DNA of 64,000 nucleotides from positions 248,001 through 312,000 of the forward strand of contig NZ_JQKJ01000001.1 of the NCBI RefSeq assembly GCF_000745975.1. The letters are read 5' to 3'. A program made the translations under genes and the position numbers. This DNA is from Desulfobacter vibrioformis DSM 8776. Its GTDB lineage: Bacteria > Desulfobacterota > Desulfobacteria > Desulfobacterales > Desulfobacteraceae. Below the pieces are notes generated by a model. The model made no database searches, was not told the origin of the DNA, and was given only the letters and a program-made list of their open reading frames with translations. The first letter of the stretch is position 1. Every line of letters begins with the position of its first letter. This document shows positions 4,893 through 54,039 of this stretch, one piece after another.

Positions 4893-5723
4893 ATGAACGC
4901 TGAAAATCAGACAGATGAAACACAGCCCCAAGCGGAAATTCCGCCGGAGCAGCTTAGTCTTAGAAGCCGGTTTAAATTCAAATGCCATAAAGGTGTCTCC
5001 TGTTTTACCGACTGCTGCAGGGGGATTGATATCATGCTCACCCCCTATGATATTTTAACCATGCGCAAAAAACTGGACGTGGATTCGGAAAAATTTCTGG
5101 CCATATTTACCACCCCCCAGCTTCTTGAAAAAGCAGACATGCCTGTGGTGACCCTCAAACTCCTTGATGATGAGCGCCGGTCCTGCCCGTTTGTCCAGGA
5201 CAAGGAAGGGTGTGTGATTTATGAAGACCGTCCCACCACCTGCCGGTACTACCCCCTTGGCGTGGGATCTTTGAGCTACTCCGGGGAGCAGGGTGAAAAG
5301 GATGAGTTCTTTTTCATGATCAAGGAAGCCCATTGCAAAGGCTTTGATGAAACAGACGAATGGACCGTAGGGGAATGGCGTGAAGACCAGGGGGTTGATC
5401 TGCGTGACGAGGTCAATGAAGGCTGGCTGGATCTCATGGTCCGTAAAAAATCTTTGCCGCCCAGCATGCAGCTGTCTGAACAGGCCAAACAGATGTTTTT
5501 CATGGTGTGCTATAATCTGGATAAGTTTAAGCGGTTCGTGTTTGAATCCTCTTTTCTGACCCGGTACAAGATCCCTGAAGAACGGGTGGCCCAGATTAAA
5601 GAGGATGATGTGAAACTGCTTCAGTTCGGATTTGAATGGCTGAAAACCACTTTTTTTCATACCGGAGAGGAGATGTTTAATCCGAAAGAAAAAAGCGGGG
5701 ATACTACTGCCGCTGAAGAATAA
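4893..5723 (+). CDS. YkgJ-family cysteine cluster protein
   Basis: Member of the zinc/iron-chelating CxxCxxCC family (YkgJ/PF03692 type). The amino-terminal cluster CHKGVSCFTDCC sits near residue 31, and a second cysteine group (SCPFVQDKEGCVIYEDRPTTCRYYPLG) follows at about residues 95-125, as in the family. The rest is helical and unassigned. These proteins are presumed to bind a metal and have been linked to metal handling or modification, but the function is not established. The ATG follows a GAGG ribosome binding site. The gene ends 28 bp before a strong terminator. Confidence 0.8.
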   Translation: MNAENQTDETQPQAEIPPEQLSLRSRFKFKCHKGVSCFTDCCRGIDIMLTPYDILTMRKKLDVDSEKFLAIFTTPQLLEKADMPVVTLKLLDDERRSCPFVQDKEGCVIYEDRPTTCRYYPLGVGSLSYSGEQGEKDEFFFMIKEAHCKGFDETDEWTVGEWREDQGVDLRDEVNEGWLDLMVRKKSLPPSMQLSEQAKQMFFMVCYNLDKFKRFVFESSFLTRYKIPEERVAQIKEDDVKLLQFGFEWLKTTFFHTGEEMFNPKEKSGDTTAAEE

Positions 5724-5751
5724 TGTGCCCTTACGGCAATCCGTAAAGCAG

Positions 5752-5798
5752 ACAGGCGCGCCGCAGAAATCCTTTTGCGGCGCGCCTGTTTATTTGAT
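5752..5798 (+). terminator. Rho-independent terminator after cysteine-cluster gene
   Basis: Perfect 14-bp GC-rich stem (5752-5765 with 5776-5789, core CAGGCGCGCCGCA), 10-nt loop, then a T-rich run. It is placed just after the stop codon at 5723. Confidence 0.85.
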
Positions 5799-5818
5799 TT
5801 TTTGGGGGGGTACTGTTT

Positions 5819-5971
5819 AGTCAATGCCATAAACTTAAGCATTCAGATTTTATTTTACCACGAAGAACACGAAGTTCACGAAGATAGAAGATATTAGAGA
5901 ACTAAACTTCGTGTTCTTCGTGAACTTCGTGGTTTTAATCTGAAAAGTTTCTTAACTTTATGACATTGACT
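5819..5971. repeat. long imperfect inverted repeat (intergenic, ~150 bp)
   Basis: The arms are 5819 onward (AGTCAATGCCATAAAC...) and its approximate reverse complement ending at 5971 (...TTTATGACATTGACT). Nested inside are ACCACGAAGAACACGAAG at 5857-5874 and CTTCGTGAACTTCGTGGT at 5916-5933, which match exactly when inverted. The element fills the gap between two convergent genes. It resembles the CCACGAAGAACACGAAG-type repeats seen between genes in many Desulfobacterota; a related copy lies at 32427-32495. Confidence 0.75.
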
Positions 5972-5973
5972 GT

Positions 5974-7008
5974 TTAGTAGTTATACCATAATGCTTCATG
6001 GGCTGCCGAATCATTAAGGCGGGCATCAATATCCAGATTAAAAAACGAGGCAATCGGCGCCAAAATTTCAGGATTGTCTGCCTGCACTTTTTTTAAAGCA
6101 GAAAGCGCCATATCAAATCCTTTTTGGGTCATTTTTCCCAGGGGGGGGCGGCAGGGGCCGGCCGGCATGCCAAGGATCTGCATCATGGTTTTCAGGGGCA
6201 AAGGATTTCTGGCCCGGCACTTGACAAGCCCGTATTTGCTGGCTTCTTCAGTGGTGATCACCACAATATCCAGCAACGGAGACAATGCGGTCTGAATGGC
6301 AATGGCCTCTTCTCTTTTGCCCTGGTTAAGCAGTTCAACCATTTGGGTCATGGATGCCGGTGCAATATTTGACATGACTGAAATGGCACCGCAGGCCCGG
6401 ATCTGTTCGTCTGCCATGATGCGGCAGACCAGGGCGTCGTCCCCGGAAAAGATATTGAAACTGTCCCCGCAAAGTTTTCTGGTCAGCTTCATGTTGTCTA
6501 TATCGCCGGTGGCTTCCTTGACACTGGTCACATTGGCATAGTTGTCCGCAAGTATGGCAAGATCCTGGGGCAGCATCTGTGCACCGGTACGGCCCGGTAT
6601 AATATAAGGAATGATATCCAGGCCCGGGGTTTCCCTTGCCACCACCTCGTAATATTCCCGCCTGATTTCAAGGGAGGACGGTCCATTGTAATAGGGATCC
6701 ACCAGAAGCACACTGTCCACGCCCTGTTCTGCAGCATGGGACGTGCCGTTTAAGGCTTCAGTCGTGTTGTTTGAGCCGGTGCCGGCGATGCATTTGCACT
6801 TGCCCCTGGTCTGTTTGGCAGTCAGATCAATCACCTGATTATGTTCTTCCCATTTGAATGTGGGGCTTTCACCGGTGGTGCCGGTGGCAAGAATTCCGGA
6901 AATCCGGTTTTCAATCTGGAAATCAATGAGTGCGGACAGGCCGTCCCGGTCCAGATCTCCTGCCGGGGTGAACGGGGTGATAAGTGCGGTATAGCATCCT
7001 TGTTCCAT
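5974..7008 (-). CDS. dapA: dihydrodipicolinate synthase family protein (DapA-like)
   Basis: Class I aldolase of the DapA/NAL superfamily, most simply 4-hydroxy-tetrahydrodipicolinate synthase of lysine and murein synthesis. The N-terminal ALITPF, the substrate-binding GTTGES and the Schiff-base lysine in SVKEATGD are present; the usual YNVPGRT is changed to YIIPGRT. At 344 aa it is some 50 residues longer than typical DapA, with an extra C-terminal tail. It could therefore be a paralogue with another keto-acid substrate. The ATG has a good AGGAG site. No lysine genes are adjacent. Confidence 0.75.
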   Translation of the reverse strand: MEQGCYTALITPFTPAGDLDRDGLSALIDFQIENRISGILATGTTGESPTFKWEEHNQVIDLTAKQTRGKCKCIAGTGSNNTTEALNGTSHAAEQGVDSVLLVDPYYNGPSSLEIRREYYEVVARETPGLDIIPYIIPGRTGAQMLPQDLAILADNYANVTSVKEATGDIDNMKLTRKLCGDSFNIFSGDDALVCRIMADEQIRACGAISVMSNIAPASMTQMVELLNQGKREEAIAIQTALSPLLDIVVITTEEASKYGLVKCRARNPLPLKTMMQILGMPAGPCRPPLGKMTQKGFDMALSALKKVQADNPEILAPIASFFNLDIDARLNDSAAHEALWYNY

Positions 7009-7125
7009 AACTTACAAACTCCTGATGGTTATTTGCGCGGTATGCGCGGATAAAACAATTTGCCAAAAAAGACGTTGTGTCAATTTTTTTACAGGGCAGG
7101 TGTTTTTAAGTTTCCCTGAAAGACC

Positions 7126-7153
7126 TTGACACCCGAACGAAAAAATTTATTAT
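7126..7153 (+). promoter_or_regulatory. sigma-70-type promoter for TPR gene
   Basis: TTGACA at 7126-7131, 16-nt spacer, TATTAT at 7148-7153. It lies 57 bp before the TPR start codon, which has its own GGAG site. Confidence 0.6.
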
Positions 7154-7210
7154 ATAAAATTTTTGTTTAAACACAATGATAAAGTCATAAAAGAGCCAAA
7201 GGAGACATAA

Positions 7211-7879
7211 ATGGCCGATTCCAAAAACCTGCCCCAAAATGCAGACGAGCAGATCGCGAGACTCAGACAAGCACTGCTCCAAAACGCCGAATGCGGCACA
7301 ACCCACTATAATCTGGCTGTTGCACTGATTGGCAAGCAGGAGTTTGCCGAAGCAGAAAACGTGCTTCATGACGCCATTGAGTGCAGCCCCAGCCTGGCCG
7401 AGGCCTATGTGCAACTTGGTGGCCTGTGTCTGCAGCGTGGTGACCTTGAGGGATGTTTCCGGTTCAACCAGCAGGCCACCAAGGCCCGGGCCGGCTTTGC
7501 CGAAGGCTATGGGAATATGGCCTTTGTTCTGCTGCAGCTGGTGAACGGCGAGGATGCCAAGGAAGATGAGGAAAAAGTGGACAAGGCAATTAAAAATTTA
7601 AAAAAAGCCATTATCCACAATAAGAATTTTATTCAGGCCTATACGACTCTGGGCACTGCCTATTTCATGAAAGGGTTGATTGAAGAGGGGATCAAGGCCA
7701 ACCTCCAGGCCCTGTCCGTGGAACCTAAATTCCCCGTTGCCCATAACAACCTGGCCGTGGCCTATCTTGAACTTGAAGATTATAAACGGGCCATTGAGCA
7801 TTGCGATATTGCCGTGGATTTAGGTTTTGAAGTCAACCCGGCACTGCTGGATGAGCTTGCCCCTCACCGGAACGCATAA
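7211..7879 (+). CDS. tetratricopeptide repeat (TPR) protein
   Basis: Cytoplasmic 222-aa protein built of TPR helical pairs. Repeats are visible as THYNLAVALIGKQEFAEAENVL, AEAYVQLGGLCLQRGDLEGCF, IQAYTTLGTAYFMKGLIEEGI and PVAHNNLAVAYLELEDYKRAI. It has no signal peptide, and its binding partner is unknown. It lies directly upstream of dsrA, 201 bp away and on the same strand. Homologous TPR genes next to dsr loci would suggest a link, but the dsr promoter appears separate. Start chosen from the AAAGGAGAC site before the ATG. Confidence 0.85.
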   Translation: MADSKNLPQNADEQIARLRQALLQNAECGTTHYNLAVALIGKQEFAEAENVLHDAIECSPSLAEAYVQLGGLCLQRGDLEGCFRFNQQATKARAGFAEGYGNMAFVLLQLVNGEDAKEDEEKVDKAIKNLKKAIIHNKNFIQAYTTLGTAYFMKGLIEEGIKANLQALSVEPKFPVAHNNLAVAYLELEDYKRAIEHCDIAVDLGFEVNPALLDELAPHRNA

Positions 7880-7904
7880 TCACACCTGCGATGACAGGTT
7901 TTTA

Positions 7905-7956
7905 TTGACATGCGGACGTATAAATTCTATATCAGCTATGTTATTTTGCTTATAAT
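7905..7956 (+). promoter_or_regulatory. candidate promoters of the dsr operon
   Basis: TTGACA at 7905-7910 with a 17-nt spacer to TATATC at 7928-7933. A second, consensus -10 hexamer TATAAT lies at 7951-7956 with a poor -35. Either could drive dsrA, giving a leader of roughly 115-140 nt. Confidence 0.5.
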
Positions 7957-7962
7957 GTATGA

Positions 7963-7995
7963 TTCAAAACGTTTATTTCTCACTAACGTTTTGAA
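7963..7995 (+). promoter_or_regulatory. perfect palindrome in the dsrA leader
   Basis: Inverted repeat TTCAAAACGTT (7963-7973) and AACGTTTTGAA (7985-7995) with an 11-nt spacer. It starts at about the transcription start expected from TATAAT at 7951. It could be a repressor or activator site, or a 5' mRNA hairpin that protects the message. Confidence 0.55.
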
Positions 7996-8080
7996 ATGAT
8001 AGGAAAAAAGAATATTGATGGAAAGTTGGAAAAATCTTTTCATTGTTGCATGTAAATCAACTTTTAACGGAGGTAAGTAA

Positions 8081-9406
8081 ATGGCGAAGCATGAAACTCC
8101 TTTACTGGACGAGCTGGAATCCGGCCCGTGGCCTAGCTTTGTTTCTGACCTGAAACAGCAGGCAGAAGTCAGAGCCAAAAACGAAAAAGGCGTTGAATTT
8201 CAGATCCCCCAGGATTGCGTAGACGATCTTCTTGGTGTTTTGGAACTTTCTTACAAACATGGACGTACCCACTGGAAACACGGCGGGATCGTTGGTGTAT
8301 TCGGTTACGGCGGCGGCGTTATCGGCCGTTACTGCGACCAGCCCAAACTGTTCCCCGGTGTTGAACATTTTCACACCATGCGCGTAAATCAGCCCTGCGG
8401 TAAGTACTACAGCACAGAATACTTGAGAAAACTGACGGATCTGTGGGACTTCAGAGGTTCCGGAGTTACCAATATGCATGGCGCCACCGGCGATATCATT
8501 CTTCTGGGTACCACCACTCCCCAGCTTGAAGAAGTGTTCTGGACACTGACACATGACTTCAACCAGGATCTGGGCGGTTCCGGTTCCAACTTAAGAACTC
8601 CGGCTGACTGCCTTGGCCAGTCCAGATGTGAATATGCCTGTTACGACACCAGCGCACTTTGCCATTTCCTGACCAACGAGTATCAGGATGAGCTGCATCG
8701 TCCGGCTTTCCCCTACAAGTTTAAATTTAAATTTGACGGCTGTCCCAACTGCTGTGTTGCCTCCATCGCACGTTCCGATATGTCCTTCATCGGTACCTGG
8801 AAAGACGACATCCGCATTGATCAGGACGCGGTTAACAAATATGTTGAAAATGATCCTGCTTATCCTGCCAATGCCGGTGCCCATAAAGGTAAAGACTGGG
8901 GCCCCTTTGACATTGAAAAGGAAGTTACCGGACTTTGCCCCACAGGCTGCATGAAGTTCGAAAACAAAAAACTGACCATTGACAATGCCAACTGCACCCG
9001 CTGCATGCACTGTATCAATGTTATGCCCAGAGCCCTTAAGGTGGGTAAAGAGACTGGCCTGTCCATTCTCTGTGGTGCCAAAGCGCCGATCCTTGATGGT
9101 GCCCAGATGGGTTCTCTGCTTGTTCCTTTTATTGAAGTTAATCCTGACAATGATTACGAAGAAATTACAGAAGTTATTGAAAATGTCTGGGATTGGTGGA
9201 TGGAAGAGGGCAAGAACCGTGAACGTCTTGGCGAGCTGATCATGCGTCAGGGCTTCCAGAAACTTCTGGAAGTGACCGGCATTGAAGCGATGCCCCAGCA
9301 TGTTGCCTATCCGAGAACCAACCCCTACATCTTCTGGAAAGAAGACGAAGTGACTGGTGGCTGGGAGCGTGACGTTGAAGAATACAGAAAACATCACTTA
9401 AGATAA
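8081..9406 (+). CDS. dsrA: dissimilatory sulfite reductase alpha subunit
   Basis: Alpha subunit of the siroheme sulfite reductase that reduces sulfite in the last steps of sulfate respiration, in the cytoplasm. The siroheme/[4Fe-4S] cysteines are C177-x5-C183 and C221-x3-C225 (DGCPNCCVA). An inserted ferredoxin domain carries CPTGC (286-290) and CTRCMHC (305-311). Length of 441 aa is standard. A strong GGAGG site precedes the ATG. It is followed after 16 bp by dsrB. In the alpha subunit the siroheme is usually structural or replaced by sirohydrochlorin, with catalysis at the beta site; this is from family knowledge. Confidence 0.98.
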
Positions 9407-44492: not shown

Positions 44493-46004
44493 ATGAAAAT
44501 CGATATAGGGCCTGTCACCCGGCTTGAAGGCCACCTCAATATTAACACAACCGTGGAAAACAATATCATCATTGATGCAAAAAGCATGGGGGAAATGTTC
44601 AGAGGGTTTGAAGTTTTTCTTCTGGGACGTGACCCGCTTGACGCCCAGCAGATTACCCAGAGGATTTGCGGTGTATGCCCGTATGCCCATGCCATTGCCT
44701 CTTCTTATGCCCAGGAAGCCGCCTACCGGCTCAAGACACCGCCAAACGGCAGAATTCTTCACAACCTTATCCAGGGCGCCAACCATTTATACGATTATCT
44801 TTTGCACTTTTATCAGCTTTCGGCCCTTGATTTTATCGATGTGACCGCTGTCACGGGCTATACCGGCAAAGACCCTGACTTGTCCCACTTGAGAGACTGG
44901 GTCAACCACGCGCTGGGCAGCAAGGAATCCTATCCGGCAGCGCCATTTCTGCCCCGGCTGTCCGGAACCTATGTAACGGATACGGACATCAATATCACGG
45001 CTTTAAAGCATTATGTGGAATCCCTTGAAATCCAGAAAAAAGCCAACCGGGCCTCGGCCATTTTCGGCGGCAGGTTTCCCCATGCCACGGGGATTTTTCC
45101 CGGCGGATGCACCCGGCCGCCTGACATTGACGCCATCGCGTCTTACCAGGCACTGATCCGTGACGTTAAGCATTTTATCCATCACAAGTATTTGCCCGAT
45201 CTTCTGGCGGTTGCCGGCGCATTCCCGGAATACTGGCATATCGGCCAGAGCAAGGGTGGTTTCATGTCCTACGGTCTGCTTCCCTTTGGGCCGGAACCGG
45301 ACAGTTCCAGGCTCCTGTCGCCTGGTGTGCTTCTTGACGGAAAAGTTGAAACGATAAAATCAGATGCCATTACCGAAGATGTTAAATTTGCCAAATACAG
45401 CTCCCCGTCCGGCCTGAAGGTCGCCCAGGGCAGCCTGACACCGGCCCCGCATAAAAAAGGCGCCTACTCCTGGGTAAAGGCACCCCGGTATGACGGGCAT
45501 ATGCTGGAAGTCGGACCAACGGCAAGGATACTGGTGGATTATTTACAGGGCGGTAATAAAACCGTGAAGCAGCTGGTGGACCGGTTCGCCGGAATTGCGG
45601 ACATTCGGCCGGAACAACTCAATTCGGTCCTGGGCCGGCACCTGTGCCGGGCCGTATCTGCCGTGGTCATTGCGGATTTCCTTCTGGACCAGACCGAACA
45701 AATCAATCCGTTGGAGCCATTTATACCTGAGATAAAAATACCGGAAGCCGGAGAAGGGTTCGGCCTTACCGAAGCGTCAAGGGGGGCCTTGCTCCATTAT
45801 ATCCGGATCAAAAAGCACAAGATTGATCATTATGAGTGTGTGGTGCCGACCACATGGAACTGTTCTCCCAGGGATGACAAGGGCACACCCGGTGCTTTGG
45901 AGTCCGCCCTCATCGGCACCTGGGTTGAAGATCCTGGGCAACAAATCGAGGCCAACCGGATTGTGCATTCTTTCGATCCTTGCCTGGCCTGTGCAGTTCA
46001 CTGA
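44493..46004 (+). CDS. [NiFe] hydrogenase large subunit without C-terminal extension
   Basis: 503-aa catalytic subunit of a [NiFe] hydrogenase. The proximal nickel-ligand motif RICGVCPYAH is at residues 57-66 and the distal motif DPCLACAVH at 495-503. The protein ends exactly at that histidine, so no C-terminal peptide is available for the usual maturation protease. That feature is known mainly from H2-sensing and CO-linked hydrogenases. It is about 50-70 residues shorter than typical group 1 respiratory enzymes. GAGGAG precedes the ATG. It lies before the small subunit, the reverse of the usual order. No hyp or protease genes are nearby. Confidence 0.93.
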   Translation: MKIDIGPVTRLEGHLNINTTVENNIIIDAKSMGEMFRGFEVFLLGRDPLDAQQITQRICGVCPYAHAIASSYAQEAAYRLKTPPNGRILHNLIQGANHLYDYLLHFYQLSALDFIDVTAVTGYTGKDPDLSHLRDWVNHALGSKESYPAAPFLPRLSGTYVTDTDINITALKHYVESLEIQKKANRASAIFGGRFPHATGIFPGGCTRPPDIDAIASYQALIRDVKHFIHHKYLPDLLAVAGAFPEYWHIGQSKGGFMSYGLLPFGPEPDSSRLLSPGVLLDGKVETIKSDAITEDVKFAKYSSPSGLKVAQGSLTPAPHKKGAYSWVKAPRYDGHMLEVGPTARILVDYLQGGNKTVKQLVDRFAGIADIRPEQLNSVLGRHLCRAVSAVVIADFLLDQTEQINPLEPFIPEIKIPEAGEGFGLTEASRGALLHYIRIKKHKIDHYECVVPTTWNCSPRDDKGTPGALESALIGTWVEDPGQQIEANRIVHSFDPCLACAVH

Positions 46005-46060
46005 TATTACACAAATCCCACAGGCTCATGTTATACGCATAGCTTCGGAGGAAAAACCCC

Positions 46061-46993
46061 ATGATAAACAGACGAGACTTCTTAAAACTGGCTGCCTGCC
46101 TCGGTGCCTCCCTTCCCATTGCCGGGCTCCCGTCAGCGGTCAGCGCGGCCCTGAAAATCCTTGATCCCGAATCCGTGCCCAAACTGATCTATCTCCAGGC
46201 CCAATCTTGTACCGGGTGCTCCGTATCCCTGCTCCAGGCCGAGGCGCCTGACGCGGTCACCATGATCACCCGTCATTCCAAGCTGGTCTTTCATCAGGAT
46301 TTGTCGGCTGCATCCGGAAAACAGGTGCTGGATCTGCTGGACGCTTATATCAGCGGGAACGCCGGGGATTATTTTCTGGCTGTCGAAGGGGCCATTCCCC
46401 TGGGGATGCCTGAAGCCTGCGTCATTGGCACAAAACCCATTGCCGACTACCTGGGTGCTGCTGCCGAAACCATGAGCGGTGCCGTTGCCATCGGCACCTG
46501 CAGTTCTTACGGAGGTATCCCGGCGGCTGAAGGCAACCTGACCGGTGCTGTCAGCCTGAATGATTTTTACAAGACAATAAATAAAAAACCGCTCCTGATT
46601 TCCATTCCAGGATGCCCGGTGCATCCGGACTGGGTCTGGAAAACCATTGTCCACCTGGTTAAAATCGGTCTCCCGGAACTCAAGAATACCCGGCCGGCTG
46701 CTTTTTTCAGCCGGAAAGTCCATGAATTGTGCCCCCGGTACCATGACTTTCAGCAGGAAATTTTTGCTGAAAAACTGGGAGATAAAGGCTGCCTTTTTAA
46801 ACTCGGCTGCCTGGGGCCGGACACTTTTGCAGACTGCCCCACCCGGTGGTGGAATTGTGGACAGACCTGGTGCATCGACGCCAATGCACCCTGTATCGGC
46901 TGTGCATCCCCCATGTTTGCAGCAAAAAGAGATTTCCCGTTTTACCGGAACGCCGAAACCGCCATGTCCGGAACCCCAGGAGAAAAGTCATGA
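46061..46993 (+). CDS. [NiFe] hydrogenase small subunit with Tat signal
   Basis: 310-aa electron-transfer subunit. A twin-arginine signal opens the protein (RRDFLK at 4-9, then a hydrophobic stretch to about residue 29), so the assembled dimer would be exported folded to the periplasm. Cluster ligands: CTGC at 50-53, [18 protein letters not shown], and the C-terminal group with [24 protein letters not shown] and CIGCASPMF. No C-terminal membrane anchor is seen. The stop overlaps the start of the chemoreceptor gene (ATGA), implying coupled translation. A cytochrome b subunit is absent; the downstream receptor heme is the only obvious partner. Confidence 0.93.
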
Positions 46994-48636
46994 AATCCCA
47001 TCTGTTTGCCCGGCTCTCCATTACCTATAAAATTATTCTCACTGTGGTTATTGTCTTGTTGATCTGTCTTGCGGCTTTTGTAGTCCTTTTAAACCGGTTT
47101 GTGGAAAACCAGATGCGGCTGACCTACACCCAGTCCGTCCACACCCTGTTCAACGCGTTTGAAGACGGGGTGAAAGGATCGCTTGAACGCGGCCAGATGA
47201 AAAATTTTCAAAAACTGCTCCTTCACCAGAAGCAAATCAACGGGGTCATGGCGGTCAATCTGTATGATCGGAAAGGCGCGGTCAATCTGTCATCCAATAC
47301 CCTGGACAAGGCAGAACCCCTTCCGGACGGATTATTGTCCCGCATCCGGGAAGAAAAGACGCAAGTCATGCAAAAATCTGACACCCGGCTTGTCATTTTC
47401 GGTCCCCAGCCCGTTGTTGCAGACTGTATCCGGTGTCATCCGACCTGGAAACAAGGAGAAATCGGAGGCATCCTCTCCCTTACATACGATCTTAGCGCCC
47501 TGAATACGGTCATCTCCAAACTCAAGTATTTTACCACTGCCGGATCAATCATTCTTCTTTTTATTATGAGTTTCATGGTTTTTATTGCCATCCAGAAAAT
47601 GGTCAAAAATCCAATCTTCAGCGTTCTCAGCGGACTGAAGGATGCGGCTGAAGGCGACGGAGACCTGACCAAAAGGTTACGCATCACGTCTGCAGATGAA
47701 CTGGGCAGTCTTTCCAGGTGGTTCAATACCTTTGTTGAAAAACTCCAGGGAATTATCCGGGATATTGCAAATAATTCTGAAAAGCAGAATAGGTCATCTG
47801 CCGAACTTCTTGATATTTCAAAAAAAATGTCAGATGCCGCCGGTATAATGACCGAAAGGTCCAATACCGTGGCAGCAGCGGCTGTGGATGTGAGCGACAA
47901 CATGACGTCAACGGCCGCAGCAGCCGAACAATCCTCCAATAATATTGAAATGGTATCTTCTGCGGCTGAAGAGATGAGTGCCATGATTGGAAAAATTGCC
48001 AAAAACACCGAAGAAACCCGCAAAAACAGCCAGTACGCCGTCTCCAGAACCCAGAAAGCCGCCGACAGCATTAAAAATCTTGAACATAGTGCCCAGGAGA
48101 TCGGAGATGTGGTTGAAACCATTAACGATATTTCCGAACAAACCAATTTGCTCTCCTTGAACGCGACCATTGAAGCAGCGCGTGCCGGGGAAAGCGGCAG
48201 AGGCTTTGCCGTGGTGGCCAGTGAAATCAAACTCCTGGCAAAACAAACAGCAGACGCCACGTATGAAATTCAGGGAAAAGTCATCCGCATTCAGGATTCG
48301 ACCCGCCAGGCCATTTCGGAAATTTCAGAAATCAGCAATGCCATAGACAGTGTCAATGCCATGATCGACACCATCACCACCAGTGTGGAAAAACAGTCCG
48401 GCACTACGCGTGAAATTGCCGGCAATGTCAGCCAGGCAGCCCTGGGAATCCAGGAAGTTACCCTCAATGTAACGGAAAGTTCAAAAAAAGTTAAAAAAAT
48501 TGCAAGTGATATTGACGACGTTCACCAGGCAGCCCTTGGCATATCGGACAGGAGTTCGGAAATAAACGCCAGTGCAGACCGGCTCAGCCAGATATCCAAA
48601 ACCCTGAAAACATCAGTGGATCAATTTAAGATTTAA
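46990..48636 (+). CDS. methyl-accepting chemotaxis protein with periplasmic heme-c motif
   Basis: 548-aa chemoreceptor. Membrane helices at about 13-35 and 182-202 enclose a periplasmic sensor of about 145 residues containing a single CIRCH (146-150), a c-type heme attachment motif. The sensor may be Tll0287-like. A HAMP domain follows (about 203-255), then the cytoplasmic signalling domain with the hairpin tip [35 protein letters not shown]. There is no C-terminal pentapeptide tether. The start at 46990 gives a 4-bp overlap with the hydrogenase small subunit. It may sense redox state or H2 through the hydrogenase, comparable to but distinct from the heme receptor DcrA of Desulfovibrio. Confidence 0.93.
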
Positions 48637-51060: not shown

Positions 51061-54039
51061 TTAAACAGCAGCGGGATATGAAATACGGTTGCGCCCGTCC
51101 TTTTTGGATTTGTATAGCATCTCATCGGTCTCTTTCAGCATTTCGCCAAAGGATTCAATGCCGTCTGAGTAATGGGCCACACCCAGGCTCAAGGTCAGTT
51201 TCAGATTGGCGGCGCCCTTGACCGCAAAGGTTCTTTTTTCGAAAACGGCGCGTATTTTGTCAGCAACAGGAATGGCGCCCTTAATGCCGGTTCCGGGAAG
51301 GATGATCATGAATTCGTCCCCGCCATACCGCCCCGGGATATCGGTTGCCCGAAGATTTTCCCGGATGATGGATGACACCTGTTTTAACACCCTGTCTCCG
51401 ATATCGTGGCCATACCTGTCATTGACTTTTTTAAAATGGTCAATGTCTATCATAATAACGGACAGACTGCCTTTTTTACGCTTTGCCGTTTCAAATTCCC
51501 GGTTTCCGAAATTCATGAAATATCTTCGGTTGTAGAGCCCTGTTAAGGGATCGATATTGGCCAGCCGGGCGTTTTCAATGGCTTTGGACGCAGCGTATTT
51601 CAAGGAAAGGTGGGTATCAATTCTGGCCAGCAGTTCGGTTTTGTCCACCGGTTTTACGATATAATCATTGGCCCCCACCTCAAAGGCTGTGACAATATCA
51701 CCGGGTTGATTTTTTGCCGTCAGAAATATGATGGGCAGCTCAAACGTGGAATATTGTTCTCTCAACTTCCGGCAGACCTCATACCCGGACATCCTGGGCA
51801 TCATGATATCAAGAAGTACAAGATCAAACCGGCTGGTTTTGATTCTTTCCAGGGCCAGACACCCGCTTGGTACGAATTCGGCCCCCAGTTTTTTTATCCC
51901 CAGGTAGTTGAGCAGAACCTGGCCGTTTACCGCTTCGTCATCCACGATGAGCACTTTTTTCGAACAATTGCCGGTGCGGGTATTGGGTAAGGGACAGCTG
52001 ACTTCGGGAAAAGGCAGAATGCCGCTTAAGGGCGCTGGATCAAAGCGAATCCCTTTTGCCTTTTTTCCATTGGCGGCAACCTGCGGGAGCGTAAATATAA
52101 AACAGGACCCCTTGCCTGGCTCTGATTCAACCCGGATGTTGCCGCCGTGCAATTCCACCAGCTTTTTAGTGATGGGAAGCCCCAGTCCGGTTCCTTTGTA
52201 TTCCCGTTCAATGGAACCGTCGCCCTGCTCAAAGGAGTTGAAAATACGTTCTGTGAATGAAGGATCGATACCAATCCCCGAATCCTCAACCCGGACCTCC
52301 ATGGTATCTGCCCCAGGGATGGCCCGGACCCTGACATAGCCTTTTTCCGTATATTTTACACCGTTCCCGATGAGATTATACAGGATCTGCTGAAGCCTGT
52401 TTTCATCTCCATAGACAAAGGGCGCATCCTTAGGAATGTCATTAATTAATTGAATGGCTTTGTTTGGCGTCGTGGATTTTATAACGGTCATGACAACACA
52501 GACCATCTGCCCTAAATCCTGGGGCTTTTTAGAAATCAGGATATCGTTGTGTTTCAGCTTTGAAAAGTCCAGGACATCATTAATGAGCGTTGAAAGTCTT
52601 TTCCCGCTTGAGACAATAAGGCCCAGATTCTGCCGGGCCTCCCCGGAAAGCGGACCTGCAGCGCCATGAATCAAGGATTCGGCCACGCCGATGATGCCGT
52701 TGATAGGGGTTCTCAATTCATGGGAGGTATTGGCAAGAAATTCATCTTTGAGACGGTCAACAACCTTGAGTTTTTCAGACAGCATGGCAACCGTCCTGTG
52801 CTCCTGTGAGAATTTGATGGCCAGCATGAGGGACTGGATCAGAATAAATCCAAGAAAAAACAGGGCCAGGTAATACCCTGTATTGATCACCTGCAGGTAG
52901 TGCAGCATGTCATTGGCAACCCCTGCCGCCAGAACCAGACTTCCGGATAAAAAGAGCATGGCAAAAGCTGTTTTGTTCACAATCGCCTTCAGGTTAATAT
53001 AAAGGATAAACAGAACGCTGGCCCCCACCGCCACCAGATAATATTTGAATATCACGGAGTAAGCCATTGTGGATACAAAAGGGATACAGCCGGCATAGAG
53101 AAAATGGACAGCCGTCATCAGCCAGAAAAAAAAACGGGGCAGCTCTTTTTTGAAAAAAAAGTAGCTGAAAAACTGAAACAGGATCACGCAACAGGGAATG
53201 GTGACGGTTGAGAGTCTTGATGCGATTTCAAAGGTCAGGTCGGGAATGATCCAGGAAATCAGGGTATTGCCCGTGAACAGGGTTCTGAGGGCAACCATGA
53301 AACAGAACAAACCGAAATAAAACAGTTCTTTTTCTTTTTGCCGGAATAAAAAGATGATGGTGTGGTAAAATCCGGCAAACAGGCAAGTGGAAATGAGCAT
53401 GATCTCCATGGATGTGCTGATCATGAACTTTCGATGCATCTGTTTTTCCGTACCGAGAATAAAACTTTGGGCAATGCCCGCGTTTCCATGGCGGCGGTTT
53501 TTCATCTGCAGGACAATTTCCACATCGTCCGTATCAGGGGAAAAGGCCAGAATGTCCGGTTTGAGGAACCCGACCGGTTCGCCCGGCAACATTCCGTTTT
53601 GCCGGATTAACCGGCCATTGATCCACAGACCGTATTCCGTAAACAGTTCCGGGGTCTGTAATACCAGGCTCTTATTTTTTCCGGATATTTTTACAATAAG
53701 CCGGTACGTGGCACATCCCGCGGCTGGAAAGTTGCGGCCCGGATAGGCTGTCCAGAACCGGGGAACCGGATAAAAACCGGTCAGGCCAGGATCTGACCAT
53801 TCCCGTGAATCAGGATCAAGAAGCCTGTTCCAGCAGAATTGCCACTCTCCGTCAAGTTTCACCGGCCCGGTTTTTTGCAAATCCAGGTCTCTTAAATCCA
53901 AAACCCCTTTGCCGGCTTCAGGCCCTGCCCAGACCCGGGGGCCGGACAAGTTCATTGTGATAAGAAATGCAGCGGCCAGAACCATTGTCTTTTGCAATTT
54001 CAGGATATGTTTAACATCTGGCCGCATAATTTGTGGCAT
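51061..54039 (-). CDS. 7TM-DISM hybrid histidine kinase / receiver / diguanylate cyclase fusion
   Basis: 992-aa signalling protein. Domains in order: signal sequence; extracellular carbohydrate-binding-like DISM sensor (about 40-195); seven membrane helices (about 205-420); HisKA with phosphoacceptor in SHELRTPINGIIG; HATPase (NLIGNGVKYT, DSGIGIDPSF, KGTGLGLPI); receiver with aspartate in LVLLDIMMPRMSG and lysine in IVKPVD; and a GGDEF cyclase (GRYGGDEFMIILP), with a product-inhibition I-site RATD exactly five residues before GGDEF. All active motifs look intact. One polypeptide can thus carry phosphorelay and c-di-GMP synthesis. Convergent with ilvBN. Confidence 0.93.
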   Translation of the reverse strand: MPQIMRPDVKHILKLQKTMVLAAAFLITMNLSGPRVWAGPEAGKGVLDLRDLDLQKTGPVKLDGEWQFCWNRLLDPDSREWSDPGLTGFYPVPRFWTAYPGRNFPAAGCATYRLIVKISGKNKSLVLQTPELFTEYGLWINGRLIRQNGMLPGEPVGFLKPDILAFSPDTDDVEIVLQMKNRRHGNAGIAQSFILGTEKQMHRKFMISTSMEIMLISTCLFAGFYHTIIFLFRQKEKELFYFGLFCFMVALRTLFTGNTLISWIIPDLTFEIASRLSTVTIPCCVILFQFFSYFFFKKELPRFFFWLMTAVHFLYAGCIPFVSTMAYSVIFKYYLVAVGASVLFILYINLKAIVNKTAFAMLFLSGSLVLAAGVANDMLHYLQVINTGYYLALFFLGFILIQSLMLAIKFSQEHRTVAMLSEKLKVVDRLKDEFLANTSHELRTPINGIIGVAESLIHGAAGPLSGEARQNLGLIVSSGKRLSTLINDVLDFSKLKHNDILISKKPQDLGQMVCVVMTVIKSTTPNKAIQLINDIPKDAPFVYGDENRLQQILYNLIGNGVKYTEKGYVRVRAIPGADTMEVRVEDSGIGIDPSFTERIFNSFEQGDGSIEREYKGTGLGLPITKKLVELHGGNIRVESEPGKGSCFIFTLPQVAANGKKAKGIRFDPAPLSGILPFPEVSCPLPNTRTGNCSKKVLIVDDEAVNGQVLLNYLGIKKLGAEFVPSGCLALERIKTSRFDLVLLDIMMPRMSGYEVCRKLREQYSTFELPIIFLTAKNQPGDIVTAFEVGANDYIVKPVDKTELLARIDTHLSLKYAASKAIENARLANIDPLTGLYNRRYFMNFGNREFETAKRKKGSLSVIMIDIDHFKKVNDRYGHDIGDRVLKQVSSIIRENLRATDIPGRYGGDEFMIILPGTGIKGAIPVADKIRAVFEKRTFAVKGAANLKLTLSLGVAHYSDGIESFGEMLKETDEMLYKSKKDGRNRISYPAAV

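Follow-up and report, generated by a model that had tools for sequence, protein, structure and literature searches.

A periplasmic [NiFe] hydrogenase operon ending in a heme chemoreceptor: a candidate sensor of H2 gradients in sulfate-reducing bacteria and their relatives

A three-gene operon of hydrogenase and chemoreceptor

The stretch of DNA analyzed here (the window) comprises 64,000 nucleotides of Desulfobacter vibrioformis DSM 8776 (contig NZ_JQKJ01000001.1, positions 248,001 to 312,000). It contains an operon of three plus-strand genes coding for the large subunit of a [NiFe] hydrogenase (44493..46004), its small subunit (46061..46993) and a heme-type methyl-accepting chemotaxis protein (MCP; 46990..48636). 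An earlier reading of the letters alone (the sequence-only reading) had already placed a large subunit, a small subunit with a twin-arginine translocation (Tat) signal and an MCP in a single operon, and the coordinates and Pfam matches agree with this. The ATGA in which, by that reading, the stop codon of the small subunit overlaps the start codon of the MCP was found at 46990..46993, and all three genes proved genuine and intact.

The large subunit (503 amino acids; PF00374, E=1.4e-146) keeps both active-site cysteine motifs, RICGVC and DPCLACAVH, and among proteins of solved structure the periplasmic [NiFeSe]/[NiFe] hydrogenases are closest to it. The small subunit (310 amino acids; PF14720, PF01058, TIGR01409) carries the Tat signal and three sets of ligands for iron-sulfur (FeS) clusters, the medial-cluster cysteine being as in NiFeSe enzymes when aligned to the Desulfomicrobium NiFeSe small subunit. 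Transmembrane prediction detected no C-terminal helix or membrane anchor in it. The gene order, a point that the sequence-only reading passed over, is Large-Small, whereas the sampled enzymes with a C-terminal extension are mostly Small-Large.

The third gene product (548 amino acids; PF00015, E=2.7e-33; PF00672, E=2.1e-8) has two transmembrane helices predicted by hydropathy, at residues 15-33 (47032..47088) and 183-201 (47536..47592). Between them lies a periplasmic single-Cache/PAS-like sensor domain (residues 34-182, 47089..47535), assigned from an AlphaFold model (predicted local distance difference test, pLDDT, 86) and Foldseek, and after them come a HAMP domain (residues 215-253, 47632..47748) and an MCP signaling domain (residues 337-496, 47998..48477), both identified by Pfam. 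The single CIRCH heme-c attachment motif (residues 146-150, 47425..47439), attributed by the sequence-only reading to the periplasmic part, does sit between the two predicted helices. The window contains no other plausible c-heme protein, its only other CxxCH-bearing frame being 87 amino acids long and on the minus strand; HypD, on another contig, and cytochrome c assembly genes are encoded elsewhere in the genome.

A large subunit without the maturation tail

Ordinary [NiFe] hydrogenases carry a short C-terminal tail after the second active-site motif, which is cleaved during maturation, and regulatory H2-sensing hydrogenases have no such tail. A feature overlooked by the sequence-only reading is that the large subunit of the window ends exactly at DPCLACAVH, the stop codon following directly (45975..46004) and leaving no cleavable tail. 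The second hydrogenase of the same genome (L047) has a tail of 15 residues. We compared 89 large subunits, 53 of them without a tail and 36 with one. In all 53 the protein ends in DPCxxCxxH, with zero residues after the final His. The next genes code for a small subunit and a heme MCP in 51 cases, and in the remaining two for a small subunit, a heme CheA-like kinase, CheX and a receiver protein. The missing tail and a heme chemosensory neighbor coincide: such a partner lies beside 53/53 tail-less large subunits, and a heme MCP beside only one of the 36 tail-bearing ones (L167; Fisher 5e-24, for loci that are not independent events). In the phylogenetic tree the 53 fall into one group with modest support (Shimodaira-Hasegawa-like approximate likelihood ratio test, SH-aLRT, 82), which probably reflects a single origin of the tail-less type followed by long retention.

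The tail-bearing exception (L167:5965-9150, genome G025) is a hydrogenase of Small-Large order on another branch of the tree, with a tail of six residues, and the MCP that comes next to it has a single CxxCH. The sensor of this MCP is different and weakly matches PF21563, the model of the Geobacter heme sensors. It is possibly a second, independent pairing of hydrogenase and receptor. Another candidate (L046, genome G072, 5019-9214) was rejected as a family member, being 42-44% identical, of Small-Large order and with a 15-residue tail and no MCP. It has no recognizable Tat signal, and its next genes appear by eye to be MetV-like and methylene-tetrahydrofolate reductase-like.

Conservation of the unit across genomes

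A search for the family recovered orthologs with 71-94% identity in four genera, all ordered Large-Small-heme receptor; in two genera the heme receptor is separated from the small subunit by an extra, heme-free MCP. When only the sensor half was sought in about 85,000 species genomes, by narrow peptide patterns that place distant members beyond reach, 39 loci were found. In 38 of them hydrogenase genes lie directly upstream, as far as the contigs reach, and the 39th is truncated at the edge of its contig. A sample across the phylum (395 genomes), in which relatives were read by tblastn-anchored translation, extended the family to members whose large subunits are only 45-51% identical and whose sensors are about 25% identical. 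The adjacency on which the sequence-only reading had staked its case is kept in relatives, both in the sensor scan and in the 51 loci where the layout recurs. The flanking genes vary from locus to locus, so that the operon behaves as a unit, and the twin Arg of the Tat signal is kept in 51/51.

Some loci depart from the common picture. In genome G023 (L045:7776-8672) there is a relic in which a single internal deletion, reaching from the large subunit to the end of the receptor, has removed most of the operon and left the cut large subunit fused in frame with the last part of the MCP, and at L051:107-6022 one hydrogenase pair is flanked by two heme MCPs in opposite transcription directions. 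A match assigned to Bacteroidetes (L073) is probably a mis-binned Desulfobacterales contig (its small subunit is 80% identical to that of the window).

The heme sensor

Foldseek matched the model of the window's sensor to the Cache domain of WalK and to the c-heme sensors GSU0935 (3b42), GSU0582 (3b47) and Tll0287 (5b82). The match to 3b42 reached E 4.1e-5, yet with a low template-modeling score (TM-score, 0.31-0.49), and the scores to heme proteins were low throughout (0.28-0.51). The model thus supports single-Cache/PAS-like as the class of fold, but not a close similarity to these heme proteins. At the sequence level the window's sensor remains below the threshold of PF21563, the GSU0582/GSU0935-type sensor (12.4 bits vs 27), of which 19/32 relatives gave weak matches (best E 0.0013). 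PF11845 (DUF3365/Tll0287) did not match the window and matched 8/32 relatives at E 0.03 or worse. Searched by sequence against solved structures, the sensor profile gave no useful match.

What is invariant is a pair of motifs. S[LI]x[RK]G[EQ]M and DC[ILV]RCH are kept in 67/67 sensor frames (some of them from loci duplicated from one contig), and the spacing from Met to heme His is 80-81 residues in all but one. In the window the first motif reads SLERGQM and ends in Met70 (47197..47199), the predicted distal ligand of the heme. The conservation of this Met together with CxxCH predicts a redox-switched His/Met heme, as in the Geobacter receptors. H2, at -414 mV, would be able to reduce a heme with the potential of the Geobacter sensors. 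These potentials are -251 mV for GSU0935 and -156 mV for GSU0582. The heme ligands of GSU0935 are His144 and, in the low-spin form, Met60, and binding of the Met upon reduction has been proposed to be the signal of the Geobacter sensors.

Chemosensory output

While the sensor half of the receptor is constant, its cytoplasmic half is swapped among at least three types: HAMP plus MCP, as in the window, a short MCP without HAMP, and a third type present in two genera. The constant part is the pair of hydrogenase and heme sensor. In six loci of these two genera the row of genes also holds a second MCP, CheA, CheW, CheB and CheR. In the two-member offshoot (L149:2143-7587 and L142:1-6095) the gene after the tail-less hydrogenase codes for a membrane protein in which a part bearing two CxxCH motifs is joined to Hpt and HATPase domains; this is the heme CheA-like kinase variant, with CheX and the receiver protein next to it.

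The D. vibrioformis genome codes for 27 MCPs, five CheA-type kinases and flagellins. CxxCH occurs in two of the 27 MCPs (25 of which were readable), that of the window included. Flagellin was detected in 25/27 carriers of the operon. In the phylum sample it was present in all 16 carriers vs 243/395 genomes overall (hypergeometric 3.5e-4, kinship uncorrected).

Close to the operon, on the minus strand (51061-54039), the window also codes for a large hybrid sensor, by eye with a seven-transmembrane type sensor, a histidine kinase, a receiver and GGDEF.

Proposed mechanism and alternative explanations

The large and small subunits would be exported together by the Tat system to form a periplasmic, H2-oxidizing sensor. 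Electrons from H2 would travel along the chain of three FeS clusters until they reach the c-type heme that the co-encoded receptor carries in its Cache/PAS-like domain. Reduction of this heme would favor binding of the iron by the conserved Met70, in the manner of the Geobacter receptors, and the conformational change that follows would cross the membrane to the MCP signaling domain and set CheA activity and swimming; in some lineages the signal may go through the CheA, CheW, CheB and CheR set of the same gene row. This elaborates the proposal of the sequence-only reading that periplasmic H2 oxidation reduces the receptor heme and produces H2 taxis. The proposal is supported in that the motif, the predicted axial Met, the topology and the output are all conserved and no better partner is seen for either protein. 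The sensory coupling of hydrogenase and receptor is strongly supported by the linkage, the motifs, the topology, the missing maturation tail and the conserved chemosensory output. From these features we infer that the heme is bound covalently, that Met acts as its switch, that the electrons are transferred directly and that the cells show H2 taxis. We consider it likely that the operon is a dedicated H2 chemosensor in which electrons from H2 reduce the receptor heme. With somewhat less assurance, we lean towards a broader claim: a periplasmic redox enzyme would hand gas-derived electrons straight to a receptor heme, the ligand of the receptor being in effect the electron. If so, no bacterial receptor for H2 taxis would have been identified at the molecular level before it, and the enzyme would form a new class of [NiFe] hydrogenase.

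Several observations weigh against this interpretation. The family is essentially one clade, so that its counts are not independent events; the gene row of the two genera includes no separate CheY; a nearly complete (96%) carrier genome, G069, gave no flagellin match; and a relative in the heme Cache family has been reported to bind NO. The missing CheY beside CheA, CheB and CheR and the lack of a flagellin match in G069, like the CheX and receiver protein of the kinase offshoot, would fit a system that senses H2 by the same means but whose output is attachment, pili or gene expression. Given G069, the output may indeed not be swimming everywhere. As a general account, however, this appears rather unlikely, because flagellin is enriched among carriers and most members have no pathway of their own and depend on an MCP of the ordinary kind.

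Redox or energy taxis is also unlikely, slightly more so. Here the hydrogenase would feed soluble cytochromes c and the receptor heme would read the redox state of this pool, not H2. In sulfate reducers, cytochrome c3 is the usual partner of periplasmic hydrogenases. DcrA and the heme receptors of Geobacter are regarded as redox sensors. Against a shared pool stand the ordinary hydrogenases of the same genomes, which have no receptor, and the strict one-to-one linkage, which suggests a private partner. The surface of the small subunit points the same way, since the sensory type lacks the acidic tail of the other hydrogenases. Beyond the last cluster motif the sensory type has a basic stretch (mean charge +2.8), where hydrogenases with a maturation tail have an acidic one (about -3.5), in a comparison that has one truncated sensory locus (L063) in the wrong group. 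This would suggest a redox partner different from the lysine-rich cytochromes c3, provided that the stretch lies at the electron exit. We rejected the idea that the basic tail complements the receptor, since the window's sensor domain is basic too; the tail marks only a changed surface.

Less probable still is a heme sensor of NO, CO or O2 in which the hydrogenase only keeps the heme reduced. Heme Cache proteins do bind NO, and the heme of GSU0582 and GSU0935, once reduced, binds both CO and NO. The predicted His/Met ligation would, however, fill both axial sites, and a whole hydrogenase retained over such deep divergence merely as a reductant would be costly. Finally, a plain uptake hydrogenase with an MCP as accidental neighbor, which the catalytic look of the active-site motifs might have suggested, is refuted by the survey, since the linkage is kept in 51 loci despite differing flanks and the missing maturation tail is confined to this group.

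Significance

H2 serves as a central currency in anoxic sediments and in syntrophy, and is equally important in corrosion and in the storage of gas underground; to our knowledge no bacterial receptor for locating H2 gradients has been identified. Sulfate reducers and their relatives keep a specialized periplasmic hydrogenase genetically tied to a heme chemotaxis receptor, in what looks like an undescribed sensor for detecting H2 gradients and, probably, for swimming along them. Hydrogenotaxis has been shown in a methanogen and is suspected in a sulfate reducer, and the operon provides a concrete, testable candidate for the receptor. The classification of hydrogenases would gain a periplasmic, extension-less sensory class, whose genes surveys may wrongly count among those of uptake hydrogenases.

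Comparison with known systems

The sequence-only reading knew of no described system with this layout, and our searches agree. HydDB recognizes regulatory [NiFe] groups 2b (histidine kinase) and 2c (diguanylate cyclase, putative) and [FeFe] group C2 (chemotactic, putative); it lists no [NiFe] group linked to receptors or MCPs, and [FeFe] C2 alone is proposed there to be chemotactic. No [NiFe] hydrogenase-MCP system was found in the literature searched, which consisted mostly of papers outside subscription journals. Group C2 likewise has a proposed role in H2 sensing through methyl-accepting proteins, but it is an unrelated enzyme class, putative and of undetermined role according to HydDB, with neither a periplasmic [NiFe] enzyme nor a heme receptor. 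The subunits of the window match only [NiFe] families and do not show the H-cluster of that group.

Closest in function is regulatory [NiFe] group 2b (HoxBC/HupUV with the HoxJ kinase), also an H2-sensing hydrogenase tied to a signaling protein and also devoid of a maturation tail. Three [4Fe-4S] clusters are a further likeness, read in the regulatory hydrogenase as streamlined electron transfer. The narrow gas channel of that group has Ile/Phe in place of Val/Leu; at what is probably one of these positions, in CGVC, the large subunit of the window keeps Val. Group 2b is cytoplasmic, lacks a Tat signal, has group 2 sequences and is partnered by a PAS histidine kinase, whereas the system described here is periplasmic and group-1-like, with a conserved Tat signal and a heme chemoreceptor as partner. 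The partner is an MCP in 51 loci, and a CheA-like kinase only in the two-member offshoot.

By sequence the closest enzymes are the group 1 [NiFeSe]/[NiFe] hydrogenases (HysAB, HynAB), with which the pair shares the active-site cysteines, the Tat export and the FeS ligands of the electron chain. They differ in their cleaved tail of 15-16 amino acids, absent here, and in their Small-Large order, their acidic small-subunit tail and the lack of a chemoreceptor partner. On the receptor side, GSU0582 and GSU0935 of Geobacter and DcrA of Desulfovibrio are likewise MCPs whose periplasmic PAS/Cache-like domain carries a single c-heme, in the GSU proteins with a matching Met...CxxCH arrangement, but no hydrogenase partner has been described for them and the window's sensor falls short of their Pfam model. 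The heme Cache family (DUF3365/Tll0287) shares a Cache fold with CxxCH and differs in the reported NO binding and in its profile, unmatched here at threshold. By analogy, the system would work like a regulatory hydrogenase joined to a Geobacter-type heme receptor while departing from each in its defining features, which places it near the border of a new class.

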